From the IMG/VR virus record IMGVR_UViG_3300009149_000054, positions 1-48,225 of that record: a stretch of DNA of 48,225 nt. The stretch is one strand, 5' to 3'. The number at the start of each line of letters is the position of its first letter. Within the stretch, counting starts at the first letter, position 1. Origin of the DNA: a virus. Positions 7,486-45,377 of this stretch are shown here, piece after piece. The position numbers and the translations under genes are program-made. The notes below the pieces were generated by a model. It saw only the letters and a list, made by a program, of their open reading frames with translations. It ran no database searches and had not been told where the DNA came from.

Positions 7486-8988
7486 TCATTTACATTTATA
7501 TACATACCTGAACTTTGGCATGCTCTTTATTTTTCTGTAACCATTTTTACGAGCATAATCACCTTCAGACATATGTGCTCGTTTCGCCCTGTTATAGAGA
7601 GTCTTCTTGTGTAAATGATCGATTCCGTCAAAATAACTATAGCTCGATTGTGTTATATGATCCATAACAAAGTTGGATGCTTTATAAATAGTACCGTCGT
7701 GCCCAAAAGACTGGTCAGAATAAGCTATTACACAGCGATATTGTGATGGCAATCGTTTAATACATCTTGCAACAAACCAACTAGCAAAATTGTGTTTTTG
7801 GTATTCTGGATGAATACATAATCTGGCCAATTCCGTCAATTCATTATAATTAAACCCAGCCACCGAAACATTCTGTCGAATAGGAGAAGTAAAACAAGCA
7901 ACTGCTATTAAAACATTATCTAAATAAGCACCAAAAACATAGCTTACAGGCCTACCAATCGAACCAGCATAGTGATACTTATCGAAAAAAGAATTGTATT
8001 CACAATTCGAAATGGTAACTTCGCCAAACGAAAATTCATTGACTTGTATGAGCCCAAGCCATTGTTTGAGAGTTAATCTAATATAATCTTCTCTATCAAA
8101 TTGATACTCCCACAGATACTTCAATCTATAGCCAGCAAGCTGTGATTTGACATAGTTCGCTTTCTGAATATCTCTTGCCACATTTTGTGGTAAAGAATGG
8201 TAATAATCACCCTGAACCTCGATAAGTAAAGTATAATCATCACGCGGCACAACACAATCAAATGACCAAGAACCAATCCGACATCCTGAATCATCGTCCC
8301 TATCATTATACTCGCGAAAATATTCCACACCAAACTCATCTAGAAATTCATAAAGCCGGTTTTGTATCCCGGATACTTTAGGTCGTGCGGCAAATATCTC
8401 AAACATTTTTGATCTATAATCGGGTTTGCGCCAATTATCTTCTTGAAGCCTCGAAATCTCTTTAGAACGTAACTTCATAGCATCTGATATCGATCTCAAT
8501 CTAATATCAAATTTAATCATCGCCTGCCGTACAGCACCATAACTCCAACCAACACATTTCCCAATATCATTGATTGACAAAAATTGTTTTATATAGTGCT
8601 CAGTAAGCCACTTCTTATTTGCCCATTTATCATATGGCACAACATCAATTTGCCTGTTAAGTGCTAACCTTCTAGATTGTGCTCTAGTCCGCATTTTAAC
8701 ATTATTTAGTTTCAATCTGTCAACCACAACCGACATGCTAATTCCCAATACCCGTGCCACAGCCTCAACTGACTCTCCGGCTTCATATAATTTTATGATC
8801 GTTTTAACGTCAACAAGATGTAGATTCCTTCTTTCTTCAGCAATAGTTCTGATAGGTATGTTATGCTCCCGCATTACCATACCAACATAGACATCAGATT
8901 TACTGACAAGCTTAGATATCTTCTTAATTGATAATTGTTGATTCACATAATGATCATATAACCATGAATAAGTTTTCCAATTTATCAT
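7486..8988 (-). CDS. Free-standing Vsr-like homing endonuclease with Mom-like C-terminal domain
   Basis: 500 codons. Order of domains: helix-turn-helix-like repeats (about 10-170, including ISKLVSKSDVYVGMVM and VARVLGISMSVVVD); a NUMOD-like 'NW.KPDYRSK' element near 187; a Vsr/PD-(D/E)XK-like nuclease (240-300) with SFD244 and IEVQG, E257; then a GNAT-like domain (330-445) with LARLCIHPEYQKHNFASW and YSDQSFGHDGTIYKASNF. The last block closely resembles Mu Mom-family DNA-modification acyltransferases. Such genes spread by cutting a cognate intergenic or genic site. It sits between a terminator and a tRNA-like gene and lacks a clear ribosome site. It looks AT-richer than its neighbours, consistent with recent arrival. 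Confidence 0.82.
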   Translation of the reverse strand: MINWKTYSWLYDHYVNQQLSIKKISKLVSKSDVYVGMVMREHNIPIRTIAEERRNLHLVDVKTIIKLYEAGESVEAVARVLGISMSVVVDRLKLNNVKMRTRAQSRRLALNRQIDVVPYDKWANKKWLTEHYIKQFLSINDIGKCVGWSYGAVRQAMIKFDIRLRSISDAMKLRSKEISRLQEDNWRKPDYRSKMFEIFAARPKVSGIQNRLYEFLDEFGVEYFREYNDRDDDSGCRIGSWSFDCVVPRDDYTLLIEVQGDYYHSLPQNVARDIQKANYVKSQLAGYRLKYLWEYQFDREDYIRLTLKQWLGLIQVNEFSFGEVTISNCEYNSFFDKYHYAGSIGRPVSYVFGAYLDNVLIAVACFTSPIRQNVSVAGFNYNELTELARLCIHPEYQKHNFASWFVARCIKRLPSQYRCVIAYSDQSFGHDGTIYKASNFVMDHITQSSYSYFDGIDHLHKKTLYNRAKRAHMSEGDYARKNGYRKIKSMPKFRYVYKCK

Positions 8989-13769: not shown

Positions 13770-16730
13770 CTATTTGATGAACGATGAGTAGCTTGATTTC
13801 AAGGCGGCTCTCTGTTTAGTTACTCGTTCGTCTATACTCAACAAACTGAGTATCTTCTCGTATTCTCTATTGATATTGTGATACTGCACCCAACCATCAG
13901 TCCTATCATGCCATAAATGCAACAAAACAACGTTACGCCGCTCATCCCAAATTGTAGATTTAGATAGCCTAGCATAGAAATCACAGTCCTCACAATTATG
14001 AGCCACGATTCCGTGCACGCAATATGAGTGATCTTTATTCACATCGAAGTTGTATACCGGACCACTATATTTCCTAATTTGTATGCTGTAGATAAGCCCG
14101 AATTGCGACCGGCCGCATGAGCTAGATCCGACAAATTCGGGCCTTGGATATTTGCTGTTTATTAAATGCTCATACTCTCTGTTAACCGTAAGGTCATATG
14201 ACCACTTCTGGCTATTTTCAAAACCGCCGCCCTTGCGCCTCCCAAAAGAGTGGGCGATACCGAGTCTGCGCATCGCTGCGGAAATCAAAAAAGCTAAATT
14301 ATAACTGCTCGAATGATATACTAATCTTCTTTCTGAATTAAATTGATGGCCGCCATCCCCATCCATAGCACCGCCAAGCAAATAACTTATCGCTTCATCA
14401 CTAACTGCAGCCAAATATTCAGTAGACAAGATTTTATTTTTCGCTTTATGCTTACCAGCGTTAGCAAAAATCCACTTTGCAAAATAGGAGTTTGATACCA
14501 CTACATGTCTACAGGTATTCTTCACATAATCTGAATTTACGTGAATTCGCGGGTGCAATTGTGATATTAAGTCAGCAATGTGTGCGGCTAAGAATTGTTC
14601 ATCTTCATGCAGGAAGAAATATGTCGTCCTCAATTTTTTGGGATCCTGGATTACCCCCTCGGCAAGATACATTCCCATCAAATAAGCCAGCCCATTCTGG
14701 TTGCTAGCGATATCAAACTGGTTCGGTGACTTATCTGACCTAGCAAATTCCTCAAACGTGACACTCGGAGAGAGATCAGGCAATATATCAGTTTGAGCCA
14801 ACTCATCACCGACACGCAATTCGTTTGCTGCAATCCATTTAAATTGTTCCGTGCCGGATTTGGCCTGAGGGTCCTTCACGAGAAATGGATGCTCAGGAGT
14901 CACACCCCTGATCGGGAGTCTACCTGGTACAAATATGTCTAACACTGCACCAGAATAATCTCGGACCCGCATGCTTTGGTTCTGATAATCCCCAGCGTGC
15001 GTTAACAATTTATCAGAAGCCCTAACAGTCTCTATTGGAATATAACCACGTTGTGACGCTATCATATTACCCGGCGCAAAGCACCCATAACCCCAGAAAT
15101 TCTCAACAAATCCACCAACTCTCCAAAACACATCCGTCTTGCAGGCCAAAGAGCCACCCTCAAAATAAGTAACGATGCGATCACACGATATATCAGTGCC
15201 TACAACACCAACTTTATTTATGTGATCAGTCGATGTCTTGTCTGCATAAAAGACCTTATCACCAAAATGACATGCATCATTTCGGATCAAACTAGCAGCA
15301 ATTTCGTCAATATAATGCCCAGGCGCTAGCGTGTCAGCGTCATGCAAAACAACGATATCGTGCGACACCAACGATACACCCTTATTGAAAGCTTTACTTT
15401 TATTAAACGGCTTTCCAGAAGCAGTCTTTACTAAAACATGTCGCAGAACCCCATATTCTTCGGCACTCAGCATTGATTTTTGATCTTGTTCTGCCAAAAT
15501 AATTTCAATATTCGGGTATCGCTGCGCCCTAATATTATCTATGACAGTCAATATACATTCGCGCCTGCCAATATTGCGAAACGGTATAACACATGAAATG
15601 CTTGGTACGACAGATTTAGTAGATGCATCAACATATGATGCTCTTGTACCAATAACATCAAATCTGTTCTTAGCCGCTCTCAGATTCTGAACGCGATCTG
15701 GCACGGCAGATTTAGAGTCGTGTATTTTAAATAACTTACCTGAACCAACCACATCAAAATAACCACGGTCCTGGACTCCACTCAAAGAAAGCCTGGAAGA
15801 CCAATCAACATGCTCCATACCATAAAGACCAAACTCCTCATCAAAGAAACCGATTTTAGAAAACGCTTTTTCATCCATCGCCATAATAGCGCCATGTGGC
15901 TTGTCGTGTACAACCGACAGCATTTCGCCATTCTTGCGTACTGTTTTGCCTGATTTAGCACCGTAGACCCCAGGTTGTCTAAAACAAAAGTGATGAAAGC
16001 CTGTTTTAGACATGGCTTTAAAATAGAAACTCTCCCAGCCATTGCCCAAAATTTCGACATCATCATTCAGTAGGATCTTATGCGGAAATCTGGCTAAACA
16101 TCTAAGCAACCTATTAGAATTGCCAGCTATACCCAACCTAGTTCTATTCATCAAAATGACGAACGATTTGCAGTTAGCTAAATTAGAAAGATAGGCCAAC
16201 GTTCCCTTGTCATCACTACAATCATCGCTAATGAAAACGGTCGTTTTCCTAAGATCGGTATGATCCCTTATAGACTTGATCAGCCTCTTTAATGTAACAA
16301 CTCTGTTATATGACAAAATACCGACGCCAATATGGTTACTTACTGGGTACGACACTGCACCTAAAATCTGACGAAATTTATCGGACGCACCGTGCGAAAC
16401 ATGTCGACCAACAATCTTGTTATTACTTTTATTACTTTTTGTCCTAATTTTCCTTCGGTCAATCGCCCTTTGCCTAACTCGACGCCGCGCATTAGTTAAC
16501 GCACTTAACCCGGCTCTGGTTGTAGATACTCGGCCAGATTTCTTAAGTTTCAGACTATCTGGTGATTGATGCGTTATCGAAATATCTCCCGCCTTGCGCA
16601 GATATTGATCAATATATCTATCAAAAAACACTGGTAACCTTATTGTCTTACCTCGCCTTATATGAACCTTTCTACCATCGGCACCTGTTAAGTTCAAATC
16701 ATGTGGGTGCGGATTCACGTAGATAGGCAT
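13770..16730 (-). CDS. Bifunctional glycosyltransferase with N-terminal virion-like domain, interrupted by a LAGLIDADG intein
   Basis: 986 codons, about 623 after intein removal. Residues 1-55 form a small beta domain (HIRRGKTIRLP) like the virion-cluster protein at 794-1087, followed by a strongly basic linker (60-115). First GT-A domain, 133-330: GVGILSYNRVVTLKRLI, FISDDCSDD and a D-x-D-like LLNDDVEILG. Second GT-A domain from 376: SCVIPFRNIGRRECIL, VLHDADTLAPGHY with D-x-D at 464-466, and GGFVENFWGYG, whose 'GEDxDLxxRL'-type continuation resumes after the intein as CEDCDFYARL. This two-domain layout resembles chondroitin/polysaccharide-type GT2 enzymes. The intein sits in the second active site, so splicing should be needed for activity. 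Confidence 0.88.
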   Translation of the reverse strand: MPIYVNPHPHDLNLTGADGRKVHIRRGKTIRLPVFFDRYIDQYLRKAGDISITHQSPDSLKLKKSGRVSTTRAGLSALTNARRRVRQRAIDRRKIRTKSNKSNNKIVGRHVSHGASDKFRQILGAVSYPVSNHIGVGILSYNRVVTLKRLIKSIRDHTDLRKTTVFISDDCSDDKGTLAYLSNLANCKSFVILMNRTRLGIAGNSNRLLRCLARFPHKILLNDDVEILGNGWESFYFKAMSKTGFHHFCFRQPGVYGAKSGKTVRKNGEMLSVVHDKPHGAIMAMDEKAFSKIGFFDEEFGLYGMEHVDWSSRLSLSGVQDRGYFDVVGSGKLFKIHDSKSAVPDRVQNLRAAKNRFDVIGTRASYVDASTKSVVPSISCVIPFRNIGRRECILTVIDNIRAQRYPNIEIILAEQDQKSMLSAEEYGVLRHVLVKTASGKPFNKSKAFNKGVSLVSHDIVVLHDADTLAPGHYIDEIAASLIRNDACHFGDKVFYADKTSTDHINKVGVVGTDISCDRIVTYFEGGSLACKTDVFWRVGGFVENFWGYGCFAPGNMIASQRGYIPIETVRASDKLLTHAGDYQNQSMRVRDYSGAVLDIFVPGRLPIRGVTPEHPFLVKDPQAKSGTEQFKWIAANELRVGDELAQTDILPDLSPSVTFEEFARSDKSPNQFDIASNQNGLAYLMGMYLAEGVIQDPKKLRTTYFFLHEDEQFLAAHIADLISQLHPRIHVNSDYVKNTCRHVVVSNSYFAKWIFANAGKHKAKNKILSTEYLAAVSDEAISYLLGGAMDGDGGHQFNSERRLVYHSSSYNLAFLISAAMRRLGIAHSFGRRKGGGFENSQKWSYDLTVNREYEHLINSKYPRPEFVGSSSCGRSQFGLIYSIQIRKYSGPVYNFDVNKDHSYCVHGIVAHNCEDCDFYARLSKSTIWDERRNVVLLHLWHDRTDGWVQYHNINREYEKILSLLSIDERVTKQRAALKSSYSSFIK
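13995..15083 (-). mobile_element. Intein with LAGLIDADG homing endonuclease in the glycosyltransferase
   Basis: 363 residues, host residues 550-912. It starts with Cys (CFAPGNMIASQRG, block A), has block B at VTPEHPFLV (610-618), and two LAGLIDADG motifs: LAYLMGMYLAEG (about 671-682) and YLLGGAMDGDGG (about 773-784). It ends VYNFDVNKDHSYCVHGIVAHN followed by Cys as the +1 extein residue. All splicing residues (Cys1, His-Asn, Cys+1) are present, and the endonuclease acidic residues (E, D) are retained, so it looks active for both splicing and homing. Confidence 0.92.
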
Positions 16731-19677: not shown

Positions 19678-20925
19678 ATGCTAAACTTGGTCGGATTAAA
19701 AACCGGAAAATTGTCTGTTTTAGCATTTTCTCATATACAAAACAGACATAGCAAATGGCTTTGTAGATGCGATTGCGGAAACGAAAAAATTATATTCGGG
19801 TCTCATTTAAAAAATGGTACTACAAAGAGTTGCGGATGCCTAATAATCAAAAAATTAATAGAACGTAATACGAAACACAACCAAAGGCCGCGTGGCACAA
19901 AATCGCCGGAGTATATTAGTTGGATAGCGATGAAGCAACGCTGTTACAACCCAAAACACATATACTTTCATAGATATGGTGGGCGCGGCATAGCGGTATG
20001 CGACCAATGGCGCAATTCATTTTCAACATTCCTATCCGATCTTGGAACCAGATCGGCCGGATATACACTTGGCAGAATTGATAACAAGCAAGGATATAAA
20101 AAAGACAATTGTAAATGGATGTCACAAAACGAGCAGAATACAAATAAAAACAACTCACACCTAATCACAATCGATAATACAACAAAAACAATAAGCGAAT
20201 GGTGTAGATGTAATAATATGAAACTTGGTACAGCTATTGCCCGACTAAAACGTGGTTGGTCTCCAAAAAAAGCCATATCAATACCGGTAAGGAAACAAAA
20301 AATGAGCACTAAACAATCGCAAATTGGTAAGTCGAACGTGCGTAGGGCAAAAACACACGAGAGCAGAGTCGCTAAACTATTGTCGGAATGGTCTGGCGTG
20401 GAATTTAGACGTCGCAGAGTTGAAGGTCGGGATAGGTCAACTGTCGCCAGAGAGTCTACTTCCGACGTAATTGCCGTCGACCGTATATTCAAATTCTCCG
20501 TGGAAGCCAAGTGTGGAAAAGGATTCAGTATAGATGCCCTACTAGCATCGCCGGATACAGCTATATTCACATCGTGGTGGTTTCAGACGTCATATGATGC
20601 AGAATTATTGTCTAATTTTTTAAAGCAACCAATCGCTCCAATGTTATTCTTTAAACCAGAGCCAAACTTTGATTGGATAGCAATACCAATTAGTTCATTG
20701 AAGTCTTTTGGGATCTCATATGCAGCAATTGAATCCGAATCTAAGTGTTTGCGCTGCATATTATATCATTACAATACAACAGTAAATCACGATATATCAC
20801 ATAGCAAAAACAAGCATATAATACAAAGACAGCTTGAATCAGTCGCAATATGCCGATGGAAAAATTTTGCGGCATGTGTTGATCCAGCAGCATGTTTTTA
20901 CAGTAATGACTATATATGCCACTGA
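19678..20925 (+). CDS. HNH/AP2-type homing endonuclease fused in frame to a PD-(D/E)XK nuclease
   Basis: 415 codons on the opposite strand to its surroundings. Residues 25-55: a zinc-binding CRCDCGNEK ... SCGC element. 75-160: the phage HNH variant with WIAMKQRCYNPKH, HRYGGRGIAVCDQW, LGRIDNKQGYKKDNCKW and a closing NEQNTNKNN; 161-205: a DNA-binding tail with TISEW. From Met209 a second protein begins (MSTKQSQIGKSNVRRAKTHE) with SDVIAVDR and FSVEAKCGKGF, a D...ExK nuclease core. Met209 has its own ribosome site, so the second part was probably an independent gene into which, or in front of which, the HNH element inserted. Confidence 0.8.
   Translation: MLNLVGLKTGKLSVLAFSHIQNRHSKWLCRCDCGNEKIIFGSHLKNGTTKSCGCLIIKKLIERNTKHNQRPRGTKSPEYISWIAMKQRCYNPKHIYFHRYGGRGIAVCDQWRNSFSTFLSDLGTRSAGYTLGRIDNKQGYKKDNCKWMSQNEQNTNKNNSHLITIDNTTKTISEWCRCNNMKLGTAIARLKRGWSPKKAISIPVRKQKMSTKQSQIGKSNVRRAKTHESRVAKLLSEWSGVEFRRRRVEGRDRSTVARESTSDVIAVDRIFKFSVEAKCGKGFSIDALLASPDTAIFTSWWFQTSYDAELLSNFLKQPIAPMLFFKPEPNFDWIAIPISSLKSFGISYAAIESESKCLRCILYHYNTTVNHDISHSKNKHIIQRQLESVAICRWKNFAACVDPAACFYSNDYICH
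20302..20925 (+). CDS. PD-(D/E)XK nuclease-like protein with own start inside the HNH fusion
   Basis: 207 codons from ATG 20302 with AAGGA eight bases upstream, in the same frame as the HNH ORF. The core reads KTHESRVAKLLSEWSGVEFR, then SDVIAVDRIFKFSVEAKCGK, then a hydrophobic FTSWWFQTSYDAELL. The Asp of SDV and the E-x-K of VEAKC fit a Holliday-resolvase-like or restriction-type fold. It could be made both as a fusion and as a free protein. The last 16 bases overlap the convergent glycosyltransferase gene. Target and role unknown. Confidence 0.6.
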   Translation: MSTKQSQIGKSNVRRAKTHESRVAKLLSEWSGVEFRRRRVEGRDRSTVARESTSDVIAVDRIFKFSVEAKCGKGFSIDALLASPDTAIFTSWWFQTSYDAELLSNFLKQPIAPMLFFKPEPNFDWIAIPISSLKSFGISYAAIESESKCLRCILYHYNTTVNHDISHSKNKHIIQRQLESVAICRWKNFAACVDPAACFYSNDYICH

Positions 20926-26605: not shown

Positions 26606-27742
26606 CTAGGTTGGTTCTGAGATTGTCATTGTGTTATAAAATACATTGGTTTCGATAGACTCAAACTTAGGACCGTTTCTATTCTTTGCTATCCACAGTC
26701 TAATAATTGACGGACCGGACTCTGGTCTATACTCACACTCACGCTGGTTCAAACTGATAACATAATCGACTGGCATCGCCTTACCAAAACTCTCAGCGGC
26801 CTTGTCAAGCCCCAAATGTCCCGGAGCAGTCTGCTGATCTCCATGTCTCACACCAGTTTCGAGACTAGATCTATTGCCCTGAGTCGCCGTGAAAATAAGT
26901 ACGTTCTCGTTTCTGGCCAGACCACGCAATTCTGTGGCAATAGCTTTTTGTCGAGTATAATCACCACGCTCATTGTCGTACTTACGTCTAGCCAACATCA
27001 ATTCTAGGTAATCTAGGACAACTACCTTCGGCTGCCATCCCTTCATCTTTCTGTTATTATCCATGATCGCATAAATATCATTGACGCTGCATTCATCCGG
27101 TGGCAACTCATAGATAACTAATTTAGCGTCATGCCGCTTGAACTTGAGGACTTTTTTCTTAACAGCCTTTTGGCGTATTCTGAGGTCGCTCAACTCACTC
27201 TGGTTCAATTCCTCAACATTTGGCCTGATGAATTTATTGAGTTCGGCATCCGCAATACTACTAACGAGCCTGAGGCCAGTCATCATTTTGGACAACTCAA
27301 ACGTGACAAACATCACGTCATGTCCCTGTTTCATAGCGGCTATGGTATTATTGCCAAGCATAAGACTATTATGACTCAGAATACCAGAAGTGTAGTACCA
27401 ATGCGGTGCTTGGATTTCTATATCGTAAAAATCAACGAGTGGGCCGTCAAACAGAACAAATGAAACTTCTGAGTCACCGTATCCCAATAACTTATCGTTC
27501 GATTTAAGATCTTTAACGCGCTTCGGCCCGTCTTTAGTCGCCAAAATATGACCAGGATCGCAAATCAATTCTTCGCCATTACTTAATTCAAGCCTGACAG
27601 ATTTGCCACGTTTTATCATATCAAATGCCAAAACACGCTGAAAGCCCATCGGAGTATAGACATGGGCTTCAGAACGAGTCTTTAAAGAACCAAACGTTAC
27701 GTGCTTGAATTCATTCGTCGGTGTTATCTTTTTGACTCGCAT
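26606..27742 (-). CDS. Replicative DnaB-type helicase, C-terminal piece, carrying C-terminal half of a split intein
   Basis: 378 codons. The first 125 are intein; the extein begins SLMLGNNTIAAMKQGHDVMF and supplies the Ser of Walker A. It continues with VVVLDYLELMLARRK (Walker B), IFTATQGNRSS (the H3/sensor 'Q.NR') and IAKNRNGP ('KnR.G'). This is the RecA-like motor of phage hexameric helicases (T4 gp41 type), which unwinds DNA ahead of the fork. Activity requires joining to the N-terminal piece encoded at 27785-28594, because the Walker A loop is shared between the two genes. 42 bp separate the ORFs. Confidence 0.9.
   Translation of the reverse strand: MRVKKITPTNEFKHVTFGSLKTRSEAHVYTPMGFQRVLAFDMIKRGKSVRLELSNGEELICDPGHILATKDGPKRVKDLKSNDKLLGYGDSEVSFVLFDGPLVDFYDIEIQAPHWYYTSGILSHNSLMLGNNTIAAMKQGHDVMFVTFELSKMMTGLRLVSSIADAELNKFIRPNVEELNQSELSDLRIRQKAVKKKVLKFKRHDAKLVIYELPPDECSVNDIYAIMDNNRKMKGWQPKVVVLDYLELMLARRKYDNERGDYTRQKAIATELRGLARNENVLIFTATQGNRSSLETGVRHGDQQTAPGHLGLDKAAESFGKAMPVDYVISLNQRECEYRPESGPSIIRLWIAKNRNGPKFESIETNVFYNTMTISEPT
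27368..27742 (-). mobile_element. Split intein, C-terminal half (DnaB-type helicase), atypically long
   Basis: 125 residues from the ATG to the Asn before Ser+1. It contains VYTPMGFQRVLAF, a block-B-like NGEELICDPGHILATKDG, block F VDFYDIEIQAPHWYYTSG and block G ILSHN. Canonical split inteins have a C half of about 35-40 residues. A long C half holding block B is the atypical layout known from the AceL-TerL/VidaL type, and the alignment with AceL-TerL by eye is good. The 27 residues before VYTP have no intein motif. Confidence 0.82.
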
Positions 27743-27784
27743 ATTCTATTATTTTATCTAATGCAGTGCCTGTATCAAAAAATC

Positions 27785-28594
27785 TTACAAGTGTAAGTCT
27801 CCGACATCTTGTATAACTGATATACTAGCAATATCATCGTCTTCGACAAGATCACAGATTTTAATTCTTCCACGTGATGTCTGTACTTCTCTAAATCCTG
27901 CAAGTTTGATAACCTGGCCATCGTCAAACTCCAATTCATAGATACGAGAGAGGTTTCTCTCTATTACCTTCGATTGAAGCGAATGACATTTACCAACATT
28001 CGTCGGTGCAAGCCATATAAGAACTTCAGATGGCGATGGTCCTCCATCGTTCAAAAACTTATCGAGTTTAGGAAAGCCGGTACTGATATGCTCTACCGCG
28101 TGATCGACAAATAACTCATCAAGCTGATCGAGAAGCCAGAATCCAGGTGTCCCAACTGACGCTATTCGCGTGGCGTCGTCGAATATCTTAGTCAAAAACT
28201 CATAGTCGCCCTGTTGGTGCGCCATAAGGGCTTCATCTGAGTAAAGCTGATCGTAGATCTTATATTCGGCCCATTGCCTGAGTGTCTTTCGTAGCATTGG
28301 GACTTCGCGCGGATTTGACTCACGCTTAACAATGCGCAAGATTTCCTCATAAGGATCTTCGACAGTTAGAGCTTTCGATAACCGGTCATATAACAACCCA
28401 CGTGTTGGTACTGTACCGTGGCTGTCGAAATCCTGCCAAATCGACGCTATGATATACTGGACTTCCGGTCGTGCAAATAGCTCTGGTTGCAGATATTTGG
28501 CAAGTGAAGCATATAACTCTGGAAAATCCAGAATTAACGAAACTACTGCTTCCTCTTCGTAATTGCCAAACGGGGTATCTTGATTGTCAGCCAT
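27785..28594 (-). CDS. Replicative DnaB-type helicase, N-terminal piece, carrying N-terminal half of a split intein
   Basis: 269 codons. Residues 1-202 cover the helical N-terminal domain (EEEAVVSLILDFPELYASL, start of the DnaB/gp41 N-domain), linker, and the motor up to VLIWLAPTNVGK, which is Walker A without its Ser/Thr. Intein sequence begins at Cys203 and runs to the stop. The start overlaps the stop of the upstream gene (TAATG-type). The piece alone cannot bind ATP. It lies directly upstream of the C-terminal piece, so both would be made from one mRNA. Confidence 0.9.
   Translation of the reverse strand: MADNQDTPFGNYEEEAVVSLILDFPELYASLAKYLQPELFARPEVQYIIASIWQDFDSHGTVPTRGLLYDRLSKALTVEDPYEEILRIVKRESNPREVPMLRKTLRQWAEYKIYDQLYSDEALMAHQQGDYEFLTKIFDDATRIASVGTPGFWLLDQLDELFVDHAVEHISTGFPKLDKFLNDGGPSPSEVLIWLAPTNVGKCHSLQSKVIERNLSRIYELEFDDGQVIKLAGFREVQTSRGRIKICDLVEDDDIASISVIQDVGDLHL
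27788..27988 (-). mobile_element. Split intein, N-terminal half (DnaB-type helicase)
   Basis: 67 residues from Cys after GK. It opens CHSLQSKVIERN and then has IYELEFDDGQVIKL / VQTSRGRIKICDLVEDDD. The second stretch looks like a block B region with its His lost (AGFREVQT where 'T..H....T' is expected). The N half is shorter than the canonical ~90-110 residues, and the C half has its own block B, so the pair carries two B-like segments. Confidence 0.78.
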
Positions 28595-35374: not shown

Positions 35375-36282
35375 TCTTTGGTAGTGGATTGGTCGGGCTC
35401 ATCGCCAAAAAAATGCTTGGTGACAACTGGACTGTCATACCTTTCAGTAGGTCACGTTTCTTCAGCTTTCGTCCCGCACTGAATGATAACTTCCTGATCC
35501 ATGATGAGAGAACAGATGACTTCGTTGGCCACTTGGGCGGGAAATTAAGCTTTATCTATAAAGTCCTCTATTCGCTCAATGGAGGACTGTTCGAGTATCA
35601 AAACACGCTCAGCGATACGTGGTTAGCAAAAGTCTTCGGTACCGACATACCGCCACACTCGGACGCCTATCTTTCACAACGCAAAAACTTCTTTGTATAT
35701 GACTTGAAGCTAAACGCACTATACGAGTCTCTTCAAAAAGAATATTTAGGGTACCTTATTGACCAAAGCAAAATGGGGAAAGTCACAGAGATAGGCGACC
35801 ATTATGCAATGGTCGGCAATCAAAGAATCGAATTCGACAAGGCAGTAAGCACAATACCACTCAATTTATTGTGCCAACTATCAAAACAGAACAGATGTCA
35901 GTTGCCGTCACAACAGATTTGGTACTTCCATATCGAAACCAAAGACCTCGACTTCGAGGGTGCTAATCAGGTTCTTGTTGTGGACCCTGAGTTCGACTTC
36001 TTCAAGGTAGCAAATATCGCCAATAATAGATATCTGTTTTATTGCAAGTCAGATATTCAGATGCCTGGTGCCTACTTCATGCAGTTTATGCGGAAATTCG
36101 ATTTGCTAGATGGTACCACAATAGAAAGCGCGATACCGAAAGGACCTACCCCAAAACTAGATGCCTTCGAAAAAATGGGCATCTACTGTGTCGGTAACAA
36201 CGCACAATGGGATTGGTGCATGGACATCAGTAGCTGCATCCTTAGGCTTCTAAAAATAAAGCCTAACCTAGTCAGCGTCTAG
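35362..36282 (+). CDS. FAD-binding oxidoreductase-like protein (amine oxidase / UDP-galactopyranose mutase-like)
   Basis: 306 codons. The N-terminal VIFGSGLVGLIAKKML is a GxGxxG Rossmann dinucleotide-binding loop. The C-terminal GIYCVGNNAQWDWCMDISSCI resembles the second flavin contact ('vGR.a.W.y..mdd.i') found in amine-oxidase and UDP-galactopyranose mutase families. Intermediate strands (FDKAVSTIPLNLLCQL, with the 'D.vi.tiPl..l' pattern) also fit. It could act on a nucleotide sugar, in line with the glycosylation genes, or on another substrate. The last 15 bases overlap the convergent replicase gene. Confidence 0.66.
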   Translation: MRGVIFGSGLVGLIAKKMLGDNWTVIPFSRSRFFSFRPALNDNFLIHDERTDDFVGHLGGKLSFIYKVLYSLNGGLFEYQNTLSDTWLAKVFGTDIPPHSDAYLSQRKNFFVYDLKLNALYESLQKEYLGYLIDQSKMGKVTEIGDHYAMVGNQRIEFDKAVSTIPLNLLCQLSKQNRCQLPSQQIWYFHIETKDLDFEGANQVLVVDPEFDFFKVANIANNRYLFYCKSDIQMPGAYFMQFMRKFDLLDGTTIESAIPKGPTPKLDAFEKMGIYCVGNNAQWDWCMDISSCILRLLKIKPNLVSV

Positions 36283-37560
36283 ATCACCTTCTCTGAATTT
36301 CTCCCAGCCCTTCTTGGACCAGAGCTTGCTAAGTAGCGTCCCACGCTGAAGAGTGAACGAACCGCGATCTTCATCGTAGTTGACTCTAAGACGAACACCC
36401 GTATCAGTATCAAATGTGTCGCCAGGTTGAGCCCGTATCGCGTCTTCCCACAAGATGACGAGACATTCTTGATGACCGTCAGTGATAATGAGTTTGAGCA
36501 TAGGACGATCATTTCTCGTCTTGCCTTCAAACTTCTTAGTTATAACACCCTCGAGCCTACCAGTTAGCTTGGCGTGCTCAATATCTGCGTCGGGTGATAT
36601 GTTGTATAAATCACACGGCGAATGCCAATGATAGCCTAAAAATTCCTTTTCAAATTCAAGTATCTCTGTAAGCTCGTAATCGTCATCATATAGAGACATT
36701 ACTCGCTCAGCAGTATCGTTTGGATTGGGCTGCCAGTTTACTACTTTTTTTGGTATATTCTTCCTCTTCGGATAGAGCTTCTTATATTCATCTACCTGCC
36801 TTTTACGCTCTGCCTCAATAGATTCTTTGCTCCACCCATCTCTTTGTAACAACAAAATGCGGTGGTGCTCTTTTAGCTGCGTTATAAGAATCTTCTCGGA
36901 TGGGTCTGTATACTTATTTTCGACAAAGTTTCCGTTTTCGTTTCGCTTCATCAGAGGATCGGTACCAGTCTCTCTAACACGAACTATACGGCCGGTGCAA
37001 TATTTGTGCAGGTACCACCTCCAAGTGGCTTTGATGTTTTGATGAATATTCTTGAACGCCCCTAATTTTATAAGCCGTTCCAACAGCACTTTGTGTTTGC
37101 CCTTTTCCTTAACAAAATCGTCAATCGAATCGTGATCGTGTGTTGCATCATCTGCGTCGGCAAATTCAGTCGACAGGCTATCACCAACATTCTTCAGGCT
37201 GATTAAACCAAGAGCAACATGTGGATGGTCACCGGTCTGATTGGTCCCAGCGTGGGCAACAGGTCTAATCGTTAATCTATTAATATCGACTTCACCAAAT
37301 CTAATGCCCTCTGCCCTGGCAGCACTCATGTATCGTTCCAGCTTATCCTGATTACAATTACCCAGAACGCTGGCCCACCACTCCTCTGGATAGTGTGCTT
37401 TTAGCCACAAACACCTATATGCCCACAAACAGTACGATACAGCATGGGAGTTTCTGTGTACAGCACCAGACTGAGCGGTAATATAATTATGCTGCGTACT
37501 GGCCATCTCTGGAGAGTATGTATCTACAACCCCAATATGTCTGGCTTTTTTAATCTTCAT
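36268..37560 (-). CDS. DNA polymerase III alpha-type replicase, piece 3 (C-terminal), with C-terminal half of a split intein
   Basis: 430 codons; residues 1-37 are intein. The extein opens SHAVSYCLWAYRCLWLKAHYP, matching bacterial PolC/DnaE 'FNKSHA.aY....y.taylKahyP'. It continues with the C-terminal alpha pattern: GIRFGEVDINRLT, ALGLISLKNVGDS, FVKEKGKHKVLLERLIKLGA (helix-hairpin-helix type), and a C-terminal OB-fold from about residue 330 (AKLTGRLEGVITKKFEGKTR ... LKLIITDGHQECLVILW). This part contacts the template and other replisome proteins. It must be joined to piece 2 (38982-40967) by trans-splicing. Confidence 0.9.
   Translation of the reverse strand: MKIKKARHIGVVDTYSPEMASTQHNYITAQSGAVHRNSHAVSYCLWAYRCLWLKAHYPEEWWASVLGNCNQDKLERYMSAARAEGIRFGEVDINRLTIRPVAHAGTNQTGDHPHVALGLISLKNVGDSLSTEFADADDATHDHDSIDDFVKEKGKHKVLLERLIKLGAFKNIHQNIKATWRWYLHKYCTGRIVRVRETGTDPLMKRNENGNFVENKYTDPSEKILITQLKEHHRILLLQRDGWSKESIEAERKRQVDEYKKLYPKRKNIPKKVVNWQPNPNDTAERVMSLYDDDYELTEILEFEKEFLGYHWHSPCDLYNISPDADIEHAKLTGRLEGVITKKFEGKTRNDRPMLKLIITDGHQECLVILWEDAIRAQPGDTFDTDTGVRLRVNYDEDRGSFTLQRGTLLSKLWSKKGWEKFREGDLDAD
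37450..37560 (-). mobile_element. Split intein, C-terminal half (replicase)
   Basis: 37 residues, a canonical length: MKIKKARHIGVVDTYSPEMA then HNYITAQSGAVHRN before Ser+1. Block F (VVDTYSPE...HNYIT) is clear. The usual penultimate His is replaced by Arg (HRN), which may slow Asn cyclisation. Confidence 0.85.
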
Positions 37561-39049
37561 TGAAGTATTTTATCATTCTGTGGTGTCCGGCATCCCATAT
37601 CCTTCTATATCCATTCAAAAACATGTTCTCGGATTCTGTTTTGGATTGATCGAACTTAGTCAACACACCTGCTAGTTTGTGCTTTTGAAACTTAAGTCGA
37701 CTATAATATCTGTTGTTCCTCCAATACATATAACCGGGTTTCGTAATGCCGCAATGAAAAAAACCACAAGAAGTATAGCCACGCGCGAGATGTGAATACC
37801 TTCTGTCAGCGTAAGATAATAATCGCTCGATGCCAAGTTCTCGCGCCGCATTGCATATTAGCTTAGATAAACCACCAATAACAGTATGGCCAATAACATT
37901 GGCGAACCTAATCAATTCGTGTCCGCACCCATTTTTTGATATCGATATTGCAGCGACTATTACATTGTCGCACACGAGACCGTAATGAAATGACGCATTT
38001 CTATTACCACAAAGGTGGTTGATATTAAAAAAATGCCTCGCCTCATCAGATGACAGAACAACCATCTTGCACCGTCTAGCGTAAATCCTCTCCGACAACC
38101 CCAGCCTACTTTGTATCATTGATTTTACAATGTCCGCACGCATATTCCACTCATTGTCAAGTACCTGCAAAAGAACGATATTGTTGTCTTCGGCGGCAGA
38201 TGCTTTGTTGTGGTGCTTCTTGCGTTGTGCAGTAGTTTCAAGTCTGTCAAAAGAATGCCAAAAACCTCCATTGTACTCTATGGCAATTCTTTTCGCAGGA
38301 ACATAAATGTCCAATTCTAAACCAGAAAGAACAGATCTGTCATTATCAATAACATCAAAACCAAGGCTATACAACCAGGTCTTTATTTCAAGTTGTGGTC
38401 TTGATATGTCTTCCCGACAATTTGGACACCCATTAGCATAATGAACATGATGACTTGGTCTCTGACTAAATTGGCCGTGCTTTGAACATATAATGATCAC
38501 CTTGGTTTTAGAGTTAACATAATTGACGAGACTATAATCGTACTTGTTACCATGTACTTTATTCGACGCCTCTATAAAATCATCTAGACTCAGGAGTCTT
38601 GATTCTCTATACTTTTTATCGTCCCAATATGATTTCCTGGCTTTTTTAACTTTAGCCACATAACTGTCGTCTCTAAATTTCTTTGCTATTGACTCAGAAA
38701 CTTTTAATTTAAACTCAGAAGATTTGGATAAATTGGCATGGTTGACTCGCATTTTAGCGCGATAATCATCGTTTCGCCATAATTTTTTCGATCTTTCAGA
38801 CGAACCGTATGTAATCTTAGATTTGGCCAATATAGACCTGGCTCTACACTCTTCAATATATTTAGGATGATTTCTAAAACATTTCGGACATAAATAGAAA
38901 CCAGAGTATCTCAGGTGTGTATTTGTCGCATTTATGACGCATTTAAACGTTTTACAATCCACGGTCCCGCATTGTCCACACTTAACACGAACTATATCTC
39001 TCACTTTCGGTTGTTTTTCCTGTCCGACAAGACCAAATATTGGCGACAT
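37550..39049 (-). CDS. Free-standing Vsr-like homing endonuclease lying between the replicase split-intein genes
   Basis: About 499 codons from ATG 39049 (AAGGA upstream); the frame stays open to an ATG at 39094. Its 5' end lies inside the N-intein ORF and its last bases overlap the C-intein ORF. Order: zinc finger (VKCGQCG ... FYLCPKC); NUMOD-like repeats (LWRNDDYRAKM, KFRDDSYVAKV, YWDDKKYRES); one DUF723-like unit (HGNKYDYSLVNYVN ... ICSKHGQFSQRP ... CPNC); Vsr-like nuclease with LELDIYVPAKRIAIEYNGGF; C-terminal GNAT-like domain (HELIRFANVIGHTVIGGLSK, LLSYADRRYSH, TKPGYMYW). An endonuclease gene between intein halves is the published 'fractured gene' layout, where it presumably mobilises the whole insertion. 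Confidence 0.85.
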   Translation of the reverse strand: MSPIFGLVGQEKQPKVRDIVRVKCGQCGTVDCKTFKCVINATNTHLRYSGFYLCPKCFRNHPKYIEECRARSILAKSKITYGSSERSKKLWRNDDYRAKMRVNHANLSKSSEFKLKVSESIAKKFRDDSYVAKVKKARKSYWDDKKYRESRLLSLDDFIEASNKVHGNKYDYSLVNYVNSKTKVIIICSKHGQFSQRPSHHVHYANGCPNCREDISRPQLEIKTWLYSLGFDVIDNDRSVLSGLELDIYVPAKRIAIEYNGGFWHSFDRLETTAQRKKHHNKASAAEDNNIVLLQVLDNEWNMRADIVKSMIQSRLGLSERIYARRCKMVVLSSDEARHFFNINHLCGNRNASFHYGLVCDNVIVAAISISKNGCGHELIRFANVIGHTVIGGLSKLICNAARELGIERLLSYADRRYSHLARGYTSCGFFHCGITKPGYMYWRNNRYYSRLKFQKHKLAGVLTKFDQSKTESENMFLNGYRRIWDAGHHRMIKYFNED

Positions 39050-40967
39050 CCAATCCTTCGTCGATAATTTCCTTAACCTCATGGTATCGCCCATCTTCGC
39101 ACAAAAACTGGTGGGTTAATGTAACAGTTTCAAAAGTACCATCGTCAAACTCAATTTCGTAAACGTCCAAAGGACCATTATTGTGAATCCGAATACATTC
39201 GTCAACAACCACATTGCCACCTTCATCGACAGAATTAATATAAAAACCGCCAAATTCATACCACTCTTCTATGGTTTTTCTATCACCAGTTAGAGCATCC
39301 TCTATTATTGTATCTTTGCTGAGACATTTATTGAAAGCATATCGGCCGAACGTCTCCATCCTGTCATCCCACCACTCGGTAGCAACAGCTTCGCCAAGAA
39401 ACCTGCTGGCACCATCGATCCATCGTTGCCGTACCGGCTTTAGCTGGTCCTTCCATTTCTTGGCCACAGCCTTACGAGCATGTTGTGATTCAGGGCCGGT
39501 AAACCCAGCAATCCGCTGCCACAACTCTGTCAACTGCTCCTGGTAGACAATGACACCGTGAGTACTACCAAGTATATCGATAATCTGCTCGTCTTCATTG
39601 TCTCGCCACGACTGTGTTGGGTCGTCGCGGCGTTCAACATATTCTGGTATCATAGCCATAGGGCCTGGGTGCCCCATCGCATTGAAAATTAGTAAATCCC
39701 AGAAACTGCGTACGCCATTAGATAGAATGCGCTTCGCTAGATCAGTATCAAATTGGAAGACAGCGTCCGTTTTTTGTGCATTGGCTAGTTCCAAAGCCTT
39801 CTTATCATGCAGCGGTATCCTGTACTTCTTACCGTTCTTCCAGTAAACACCGGCCTGTTCTTTCTCAGGGTCGAGCTCCTCAAGACCCTCAAGCACATCA
39901 CCAAATGATATGCCGTGATTGGTCTCAATCATCTTGCAACATTCATAGATATATTGCAGATTCTTAAGGCCAAGTATGTCCCATTTATTATAACCAAACT
40001 TCGATAATTGTGTGCTCCTGCCCTCTGTCCAAGTACTAATCCATTGCTTGGAATCATTATTATATATCATTGGCACGTTGCCAAATAGACTCCTATCAGC
40101 TATAATAATTGCACCGGCATGCTTACCGGGATTTCTGATGCAGCCCACGAGCCTAGAAGCCACTTGGATGACCTTCTTGTGGCCTTCTCGCTCCTCTAAA
40201 AACTCCCTAAGCTCCTTATAATCTTTAATCAATCGTGCAAGAGTGGGTGTTTCTGTGTCCTCCGATCCGCATGACGGGCAGGTAATTTTATTATGCTTCG
40301 TGCCACATTCTTTCTCTACCCCATCGTCAACAACTTTGCCCTTACATATACCATAACCGCCTTCCTTCATCTCGTTAACATCGTCCGGCAGATTAGTTGT
40401 AAGATCAATTGCTTTATTGTAACGAATAGTGCCACCACCAGTATCACCATCTTGAGCAGCAAAACCGAGGGCTCTATAAGCATCTTGAATCGCGTTCTTG
40501 AATAGGTATGTGCTCCAAGTCCCGACACTAGCAACGTTATCGCTACCATACCGCTGGGATGCGTACTCTTTTATCTTGTCGCGAGCTTCAGGAAGGCAGT
40601 CGATATCGATGTCTGGCACATCAGCGTCGCGGATCATGTCGGATGGTAACTTACCACTCTGTTCAATAATTTTCGCGATAGCGGCATGATTAGAAGTTGT
40701 TGTCAGCGGGTCCGTACGATTCTCGATAGGATCTACGTCCGCTTTGCCGGACAACCTACCTAACAGCCATGGCAATAAAAGATGGTTCTTGTTTGAATCG
40801 AACTTCTTGCCAGAAATTACAATATCCGCCCAATATCTGTTGGCACCCTGCTTCTCTACCTCATTCAACTCATACTCCAGCCTCTTTTCATATATGCCAT
40901 TCAACTTCCTCTTCTTCAGAGAATCGCGCGCTGTCTCCTTAATGAGATCCCAGGTAATCTCTTTCAT
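38982..40967 (-). CDS. DNA polymerase III alpha-type replicase, piece 2 (catalytic), with N-terminal half of a split intein
   Basis: 661 codons. VPDIDIDCLPEARDKIKEYA carries the catalytic pair of Asp ('PDFDIDF'), SVGTWSTYLFKNAIQDAYRAL follows as in DnaE, RNPGKHAGAIIIA matches 'rn.g.HaaGvvi', and YNKWDILGLKNLQYI supplies the third Asp ('.kfDfLGL..L'). GVIVYQEQLTELWQRIAGFT matches 'vYQEQvm..a..iaGf..'. A cysteine cluster (ICKGKVV ... CGTKHNKITCPSCG) is inserted. The first ~100 residues include YEKRLEYELNEVEKQGANRY, which echoes the end of the PHP region in piece 1. The extein ends GRYAFNK; intein follows from Cys. Start overlaps the upstream stop (ATGA). Confidence 0.92.
   Translation of the reverse strand: MKEITWDLIKETARDSLKKRKLNGIYEKRLEYELNEVEKQGANRYWADIVISGKKFDSNKNHLLLPWLLGRLSGKADVDPIENRTDPLTTTSNHAAIAKIIEQSGKLPSDMIRDADVPDIDIDCLPEARDKIKEYASQRYGSDNVASVGTWSTYLFKNAIQDAYRALGFAAQDGDTGGGTIRYNKAIDLTTNLPDDVNEMKEGGYGICKGKVVDDGVEKECGTKHNKITCPSCGSEDTETPTLARLIKDYKELREFLEEREGHKKVIQVASRLVGCIRNPGKHAGAIIIADRSLFGNVPMIYNNDSKQWISTWTEGRSTQLSKFGYNKWDILGLKNLQYIYECCKMIETNHGISFGDVLEGLEELDPEKEQAGVYWKNGKKYRIPLHDKKALELANAQKTDAVFQFDTDLAKRILSNGVRSFWDLLIFNAMGHPGPMAMIPEYVERRDDPTQSWRDNEDEQIIDILGSTHGVIVYQEQLTELWQRIAGFTGPESQHARKAVAKKWKDQLKPVRQRWIDGASRFLGEAVATEWWDDRMETFGRYAFNKCLSKDTIIEDALTGDRKTIEEWYEFGGFYINSVDEGGNVVVDECIRIHNNGPLDVYEIEFDDGTFETVTLTHQFLCEDGRYHEVKEIIDEGLDVANIWSCRTGKTTESERYSSC
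38985..39326 (-). mobile_element. Split intein, N-terminal half (replicase)
   Basis: 114 residues from Cys after FNK. Block A CLSKDTIIEDALTGDRKTIE, block B DVYEIEFDDGTFETVTLTHQ then FLCEDGRYHEV. Length and motifs are canonical. The last ~38 residues are polar and Ser-rich. The matching C half lies 1.4 kb downstream in the transcript, beyond the endonuclease gene. Confidence 0.88.
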
Positions 40968-41833: not shown

Positions 41834-43402
41834 TCACTTTAAATGCCGCACAAATTTGTGCCGAGGTTTAACTTTTATCTTAACCAAACCAAATCGTAAA
41901 GCATAATCGAACTCACTCATAGAATTTCGTTTGGCAGCGTCCCAAACAGTTTTTTTGTGAATACGAAAACCGTCTAAATCACGATATTCGTAATCCGACG
42001 ACCTCGTCGATCCAAGACACCTAAAACCAGACGCAACATAAATTGTGCCAATGTGTGTAGATGTATCAGAAAACGCAATTACAGCCAATCGATTATTGTT
42101 TTTAGCCCATCTACACAGACGTGATATTGTCCACGATGCTAGATTCTTTATCTGATATCTTGGATGAATAATAAATCGAGATATTTCTATAACATCAGGC
42201 GGATTATATCCGATCGAAGTAGCCACTTCCAATCTATGAACAGGCGACAAAATTGCCGCAGCTATCACCTCATTATCATGTCGCACAGCAAAATATCGCC
42301 CATCACGATTCGGTTTACCAAGATAGTGAAATGCTGAAAATAAACCTATAACGCAATCACGCACACACTGCTCAAACTGCAAATCATCAAAGCTAATTCT
42401 TTCTAACGGAGCCGATTTTTCAAATAACGACCTTAGTTTAAACTCGGCCAATAAATCCGACTCTTCGATCACCAATAATTTGTAATCCGTATGCCTATGA
42501 ACATAGGTACGTTTAGCTTTATCAAGACTTTTACGTCTATCGTGCCAATAAAGACCATTAACCTCAATCAACGTGTTAGAATCCTGCAGCAAATAGTCGA
42601 ATACCCACGGGCCAACGACGGCTTGACTCACATATTTTATATCATAAGCATCAAGAACATAACCAACAAGCCTCTCCCACTGACTAATCATACATCTGTT
42701 TGACCTAGCCAAAGCACATTTGCGTCTATAATCTTCATCTTGCCATTTCTCTGTAATAGTCTCGGACAACTTATCTCTATTTCCCCTTATACTCCAGTAA
42801 TCAAACGCCCTTTCAGACATCATGGCACGTAATTCTGGATTACTATATATTGAAACAAGTTTGGCGGTTATCCGTTCCCTGTAATCGCCCCGATCCCACA
42901 AACTGCGGGACTGCTCAGACATCATAATTCTATATTCAGCATCGTTCGCCCATTTGTCTTTCAAAATAACAGAAATGGCGCTTGTGGCCAACCCTCGATT
43001 AACGTCGAGATTCGAGCAAGCTTTTTCTCTATTGAAATTAGCAAAAAACTTTCTCTTATACTCTGGATCTTGCCATAGTTCTAGCGCTCGCTGCCTTGCC
43101 AATTCCTTCGTAGAGCTATTGTGTGTGCGGGACTCCTGTTTAGCTCTATACTCCTTGTCTTGCCACTTTTTCTTTATAGCCTTTGATGATGTCTCCGACC
43201 TTAAATAATCGGCGCACTTCTTACAGCGGTAGAACCCATTCCGGCGCAAAGCCCTATAATGGTAATGCTTCGTGGCATGTTTCTCATTACCACAAATATC
43301 ACAAATTATAATAACTTTTTGATATTTAGATATTCTGTCAGATTCAGAAAAACCATAAACCTGTTCTGTACGATACCAATCAATCATAGCGTATTTTTGC
43401 AT
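41834..43402 (-). CDS. Free-standing Vsr-like homing endonuclease with Mom-like C-terminal domain, at replicase break 1
   Basis: 522 codons. N-terminal zinc finger (C34-x2-C37 ... C60-x2-C63); seven NUMOD-like 'W.D.eYr.k' repeats between residues 75 and 230 (KKWQDKEYRAK, LWQDPEYKRK, KWANDAEYR, LWDRGDYRER, others); Vsr-like nuclease with VFD269 and LIEVNGLYWH, E280; GNAT/Mom-like domain with ISRFIIHPRYQIKNLASW and FSDTSTHIGTIYVASGF. Same architecture class as the gene at 7486-8988. It starts 13 bp after the stop of replicase piece 1. No intein half is visible on either side of this break. Confidence 0.85.
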   Translation of the reverse strand: MQKYAMIDWYRTEQVYGFSESDRISKYQKVIIICDICGNEKHATKHYHYRALRRNGFYRCKKCADYLRSETSSKAIKKKWQDKEYRAKQESRTHNSSTKELARQRALELWQDPEYKRKFFANFNREKACSNLDVNRGLATSAISVILKDKWANDAEYRIMMSEQSRSLWDRGDYRERITAKLVSIYSNPELRAMMSERAFDYWSIRGNRDKLSETITEKWQDEDYRRKCALARSNRCMISQWERLVGYVLDAYDIKYVSQAVVGPWVFDYLLQDSNTLIEVNGLYWHDRRKSLDKAKRTYVHRHTDYKLLVIEESDLLAEFKLRSLFEKSAPLERISFDDLQFEQCVRDCVIGLFSAFHYLGKPNRDGRYFAVRHDNEVIAAAILSPVHRLEVATSIGYNPPDVIEISRFIIHPRYQIKNLASWTISRLCRWAKNNNRLAVIAFSDTSTHIGTIYVASGFRCLGSTRSSDYEYRDLDGFRIHKKTVWDAAKRNSMSEFDYALRFGLVKIKVKPRHKFVRHLK

Positions 43403-45368: not shown

Positions 45369-45377
45369 AGGTATATC

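Follow-up and report, generated by a model that had tools for sequence, protein, structure and literature searches.

A predicted class 1 LAGLIDADG intein in a catalytic motif of a two-domain phage glycosyltransferase

An in-frame insert in a glycosyltransferase gene

From sequence comparison and structure modelling, we consider it highly probable that a two-domain GT-A glycosyltransferase of a large tailed phage carries, in frame, a class 1 LAGLIDADG homing intein, and that the 986-aa precursor self-splices. The gene lies on a 48,225-base metagenomic virus contig (IMG/VR record IMGVR_UViG_3300009149_000054), the whole of which is referred to here as the window. Its minus-strand open reading frame (16730-13770) encodes 986 aa with no internal stop. 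The intein occupies protein residues 550-912 (363 aa, window positions 15083-13995, minus strand), between ...ENFWGYG on the N side and CEDCDFYARL... on the C side, and the exteins joined without it amount to 623 aa. The original prediction had placed a LAGLIDADG intein in this gene (13770-16730), with an excised protein of 363 residues and a ligated enzyme of about 623; the intein is borne out by comparison, fold and motifs, and both lengths match to the residue.

In the numbering of the 986-aa protein, the splicing residues are C550, T611-H614 (the block B T-x-x-H), H911-N912 and C913. Cys1 is found in CFAPGN, block B reads TPEH, block F reads VYNFDV, and the intein ends in HGIVAHN, followed by Cys+1. 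Of the two LAGLIDADG motifs, YLMGMYLAEG supplies the acid E142, in intein numbering, and LLGGAMDGDG the acid D243. The features of the gene are as follows.

15084..16730, minus strand: N-extein, residues 1-549, comprising a short N-terminal domain, the first GT-A domain and the start of the second to ...FWGYG; open frame, Pfam and PHROGs glycosyltransferase matches, pLDDT mostly >90, homologous to 28 intein-free relatives.
15633..16340, minus strand: first GT-A domain, residues 131-366, with NDDVE and YGMEHVDW; phrog_2456 at 1.4e-22, VIA Z up to 18.6 against solved GT-A enzymes, motifs kept in 31 sequences.
15084..15605, minus strand: pre-intein part of the second GT-A domain, residues 376-549, with HDAD; PF00535 at 1.1e-18 over 379-499 and PF02709 over 521-549.
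13995..15083, minus strand: predicted intein, Cys1 to Asn363; boundaries from the empty alleles and from end-to-end alignment with other phage inteins, Hint fold at Z ~18.
15081..15083, minus strand: Cys1 codon, putative block A nucleophile; invariant in ten aligned inteins.
14127..14729, minus strand: putative LAGLIDADG endonuclease insert, intein residues 119-319; a gap in the L004 mini-intein, weak PF14528 in the window and L003 copies, fold match to PI-SceI and other endonuclease-bearing inteins.
14658..14660, minus strand: E142 of the intein, first LAGLIDADG acid; D/E at this position in L003 and in most phage inteins.
14355..14357, minus strand: D243 of the intein, second LAGLIDADG acid; D in all aligned endonuclease-bearing inteins.
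13995..14000, minus strand: intein C-terminal His-Asn, block G; invariant in ten aligned inteins.
13770..13994, minus strand: C-extein, residues 913-986 (74 aa), Cys+1 then EDCDFYARL... to the stop; PDB profile alignment to the beta-1,4-galactosyltransferase motif, contiguous with the N-extein in 28 relatives.

The same site in relatives

The decisive evidence for the identity of the insert is comparative and comes from relatives in which the site is empty together with two, L003 and L004, in which it is occupied. A search with the joined exteins found 41 viral loci and one genome contig, and 28 distinct genes remained after near-copies and fragments were removed. All 28 have an uninterrupted site GYG^xED (^ marks the junction here and below), at which no residue has been added or removed. 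At +1, 18 of these intein-free relatives have Cys and the remainder V, N, Y, I, M or S, and because of this prevalence of Cys in the empty alleles the splicing Cys+1 is regarded as native to the host enzyme.

Viral contigs were scanned for more such genes, and two were found in which an insert occupies the identical codon; this is the outcome of the search of related glycosyltransferases that the original prediction had proposed. The L003 intein is 358 aa long and has the endonuclease. L004 carries a mini-intein of 159 aa from which the endonuclease is absent and in which both splicing ends are kept. An intein-profile scan of the viral contigs with the three copies returned L003 and L004 only, and scans with the DNA patterns HN^CEDC(D/E) and GYG^CFxPG gave no new carrier, the other matches being in unrelated frames. 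Among plasmid records there were just three weak intein matches, two of them in DNA methyltransferases. The source is a metagenomic virus record, and an assembly artefact might fuse genes of two phages; given two other contigs with the intein at the same codon, and a base composition common to intein and exteins, we regard such a fusion as extremely improbable.

Two observations on individual relatives are recorded here. A close intein-free relative, L046, lies on one contig of a metagenome bin labelled Lokiarchaeota; we did not accept it as a case of archaeal carriage of the gene, as it is a single binned contig, probably phage, that may be misbinned. In L029 and L036 (4947-7934) the glycosyltransferase open reading frame reaches 996 aa and runs on for ~340 aa past the usual C-terminal end.

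Family scores, fold and splicing residues

With the Pfam Intein_splicing model (cut-off 35.8 bits) the window copy scored 20.6 bits, L003 36.0 and L004 38.1, and the L003 and L004 copies also exceeded the cut-off of the NCBIfam intein C-terminal model. For the endonuclease part, PF14528 scores were weak and below cut-off in the window and L003 copies. A phmmer search with the window intein matched no intein among PDB sequences, so that a fold comparison was needed. The splicing half was modelled at pLDDT ~80-90. Its Hint fold matched solved inteins, namely those of Mtu RecA, Ssp DnaB and GyrA, with Z of 17-18 and 1.7-2.5 A across 125-144 residues, and residues 1 and 363 of the model were the end points of the alignment. 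The best full-length Foldseek matches of the intein were PI-SceI and other endonuclease-bearing inteins. The endonuclease part itself was poorly modelled, with pLDDT mostly <50, and the intein-only model left it unresolved.

Searching phage records by tblastn with the insert gave 52 records, 11 of them covering at least 80% of it, and the annotated host genes of the matches were DNA methyltransferase, thymidylate synthase, terminase and tRNA synthetase. Among the matches are seven public phage inteins that can be aligned with the window intein from Cys1 to HN and then Cys+1, and the splicing residues (Cys1, block B T-x-x-H, HN and Cys+1) are common to these seven and to the three carriers. The empty alleles, the recurrence in L003 and L004 and these seven alignments together exceed chance by a wide margin. 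Cys1, HN and Cys+1 had all been named beforehand, as had two endonuclease motifs with acidic residues, and E142 and D243 do align with acids of other phage inteins. One terminase intein in this comparison, that of crAss-like phage cr131_1 (L060, 1501-2559), is broken by four in-frame stops when read with the standard code, and a different code may apply; the stops are consistent with the stop-codon reassignment reported for crAss-like phages.

Fold similarity does not by itself separate inteins from other Hint proteins: in the comparison, hedgehog and bacterial intein-like (BIL) structures reached scores equal to those of inteins, and there were weak PT-HINT and Hint_2 matches. A non-intein autoprocessing domain of one of these types would cleave the glycosyltransferase without ligation. 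Three observations make this very unlikely, namely the conserved 74-aa C-extein that holds the catalytic ED residues and is contiguous with the N-extein in 28 relatives, the C-terminal HN and Cys+1 in all three carriers, and a LAGLIDADG endonuclease nested in its usual place. Database evidence against intein identity did not turn up. Sequence comparison thus confirms the predicted insert as an ordinary class 1 (Cys1, Cys+1) LAGLIDADG intein in an unusual host protein.

The host enzyme and the interrupted motif

Both extein halves were identified as glycosyltransferase by Pfam and PHROGs matches. The full-protein model had a mean pLDDT of 74, with the exteins mostly >90, and contained a small N-terminal domain followed by two GT-A domains. 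Foldseek ranked chondroitin polymerase K4CP and heparosan synthase 2 at the top for the host protein, and the first GT-A domain matched polypeptide GalNAc-transferases, TarP and others at Z ~18. Motifs of the D-x-D type together with ED/EH motifs were found in each domain (NDDVE and YGMEHVD in domain 1, HDAD and GYGCEDCDF in domain 2) and are kept in 31 sequences, in agreement with the bifunctional enzyme that had been proposed. K4CP (chondroitin) and PmHS2 (heparosan) polymerases likewise have two GT-A domains per chain; they are without intein, and the window enzyme is only 12-15% identical to the solved polymerases, the likeness being one of domain fold and motifs. For the mycobacteriophage Omega protein gp16, too, a pair of catalytic domains like that of chondroitin synthase has been described, with no intein mentioned (PMC3706429).

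In the extein profile, nedywGyGcedcdfyarl aligns with the YWGWGGEDDDIYNRL motif of beta-1,4-galactosyltransferase, and WGWGGEDDD is named as a motif conserved in that family (PMC7501111). WGYGCEDCDFYARL aligns with WGWGGEDDDIYNRL, and Pfam Glyco_transf_7C is shared, although the beta-1,4-galactosyltransferases are single-domain animal enzymes, unlike the two-domain window enzyme. Because the insertion site aligns with this motif, at WGWG^GEDDD, the intein interrupts the second GT-A domain in its catalytic motif. The proposed split of WGYG^CEDCDFYARL in that domain agrees with this alignment and with the seamless junction in the 28 intein-free relatives.

Several features of the enzyme and its surroundings were also seen. 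Its N-terminal domain of ~45 aa (MPxYxNP...GPDG..., 16590-16730, minus strand) is confidently modelled, present in nearly all relatives and without a Pfam name. Near the gene are a GDP-mannose dehydratase and another glycosyltransferase. A PDDEXK gene (19678-20925, plus strand) is fused to an HNH-like N-terminal half and lies on the strand opposite to its neighbours; the L003 and L004 version is without the HNH part and co-oriented with the glycosyltransferase.

Proposed splicing and homing

Splicing would begin with an N-to-S shift at Cys550, followed by transfer to Cys913. Cyclisation of Asn912 would then release the 363-aa intein and join GYG to CED, giving the 623-aa enzyme. In the unspliced precursor, domain 2 has its catalytic ED motif 363 residues away from the rest of its active site, and for this reason we infer that domain 2 should be inactive until splicing has occurred. 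The endonuclease would cut intein-free copies of the gene in co-infecting phages at the DNA for WGYGCEDCDF, and repair of the cut site would copy the intein in. In L004 the endonuclease has been lost and the splicing part retained.

Having Cys at either junction and lying inside a catalytic motif, the intein would also suit a conditional splicing switch that delays the glycosyltransferase until a cue such as a redox change, and conditional splicing is reported for other inteins (PMC6195587, PMC7360933). Such a switch would add to splicing and not replace it. The present data indicate no cue, and a patchy distribution in which 28 relatives are without the intein fits a mobile element, so that we think a switch unlikely. 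By the same measure, there is only a slight chance that the intein is retained because it delays or conditions a glycan-building enzyme, in a host class not previously known for inteins.

Evolution and selection

The extein tree was built from 31 sequences including the three intein carriers. The carriers were not grouped on it, and its starred branches force at least two changes. Holding the carriers together was rejected by the AU test (p = 0.013), which, with L004 being a long branch, is good but imperfect evidence. The splicing domains of the carriers are 52-60% identical versus 40-47% for their exteins. G+C contents of intein versus own genome are 44 versus 41% in the window, 52 versus 57% in L003 and 29 versus 28% in L004. 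Because the intein follows the composition of its own genome, any transfers would be old, and this argues against a very recent one. As many as 22 of the 24 bases around the insertion point are the same in empty relatives, a conservation explained by the fixed protein motif that it encodes.

Between the window and L003, pN was 0.38 and pS 0.89 in the endonuclease part, and pN 0.33 and pS 0.85 in the splicing part; these are given in place of dN/dS because silent sites are saturated. As judged from these values, both parts are under purifying selection. This bears on whether the intein has decayed, so that it no longer splices or its endonuclease is dead, with the second GT domain left inactive in the former event. 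The weak endonuclease domain scores would be in line with decay, and splicing is here predicted from the sequence. Nevertheless, no splicing residue and neither of the endonuclease acids has been lost, the reading frame has stayed open and purifying selection is indicated for both parts, and we therefore judge decay improbable. Taken together, phylogeny, identity and selection fit a homing intein with later losses. Repeated loss of one old intein may be an alternative history, which three carriers do not distinguish from homing.

Other apparent inteins and endonuclease-like genes in the carriers

Three more sites, in DnaB and DNA polymerase III, are interrupted in the window phage, which is intein-rich. 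On G001, the contig of L003, seven places match the splicing model, including DNA polymerase III, helicase and adenylosuccinate synthetase genes, and no such match occurs in 13 of the 16 related contigs whose glycosyltransferase site is empty. Judging from these matches, the well-covered carriers are intein-rich.

The window DnaB helicase (26606-28594, minus strand) is in two in-frame open reading frames, with an apparent split intein at the P-loop. Its junctions read APTNVGK^C... and ...GILSHN^SLMLGNN, four stops occur in the short gap between the pieces, and the N piece of ~66 aa and C piece of ~125 aa imply an unusual split point. DnaB is uninterrupted (...GK^S) in all 15 related contigs. 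A second DNA polymerase III alpha gene (36268-40967, minus strand) is halved by another apparent split intein with junctions AFNK^CLSKDT... and ...SGAVHRN^SHAVSYC, and between the halves is a Vsr/HNH-like homing endonuclease gene (37550-39094). Relatives have open reading frames of ~900 aa over the same part of the polymerase, and G001 matches it past residue 548 and may carry the same intein. A PHP-domain DNA polymerase III gene (43416-45479, minus strand) has a mini-intein with no endonuclease (GPRG^CTTSGAL... ...NGVFSSN^SAGGSLV). There are also three free-standing endonuclease-like genes (41834-43402 and 7486-8988, minus strand; 45378-47198, plus strand), two of which pair, oddly, a restriction-endonuclease-like part with a Mom/GNAT-like C-terminal domain.

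Known systems and significance

The inteins of the Aeromonas phage PS1 thymidylate synthase, the crAss-like cr131_1 terminase and the Lactobacillus phage Nyseid DNA methyltransferase resemble the window intein in Cys1, TxxH, a nested two-motif LAGLIDADG endonuclease, the VYN block F, HN and Cys+1. They align with it end to end but at 22-25% identity, and the hosts of these class 1 phage inteins are DNA or nucleotide enzymes, terminase and tRNA synthetase, whereas the window host is a glycosyltransferase. Mycobacteriophage inteins, of which the terminase ones have been assayed for splicing and endonuclease activity, are similar in their placement in active-site motifs of host proteins (PMC5050341). 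Their hosts are terminase, portal, RDF, TOPRIM, thymidylate synthase, methyltransferase and similar proteins, with no glycosyltransferase intein in that survey (PMC5050341). The Haloferax glycosylation-island endonucleases (PMC5867893) are free-standing and not inteins.

We found no glycosyltransferase intein in the open-access literature searched, whose coverage is incomplete and leaves the major intein surveys outside it, and none outside this family among the phage and plasmid records searched. The description of the host as unusual, made at the outset, holds as far as these literature, phage and plasmid searches extend. The kind of element is already known, and the glycosyltransferase host class appears to be new. 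The usual rule of insertion in the most conserved catalytic motif would thereby be extended outside DNA metabolism. One site in three states (full intein, mini-intein, and empty with the native Cys) would form a natural set for tests of homing and loss, in which L004 would provide a naturally compact 159-aa Cys/Cys mini-intein with full-length relatives.
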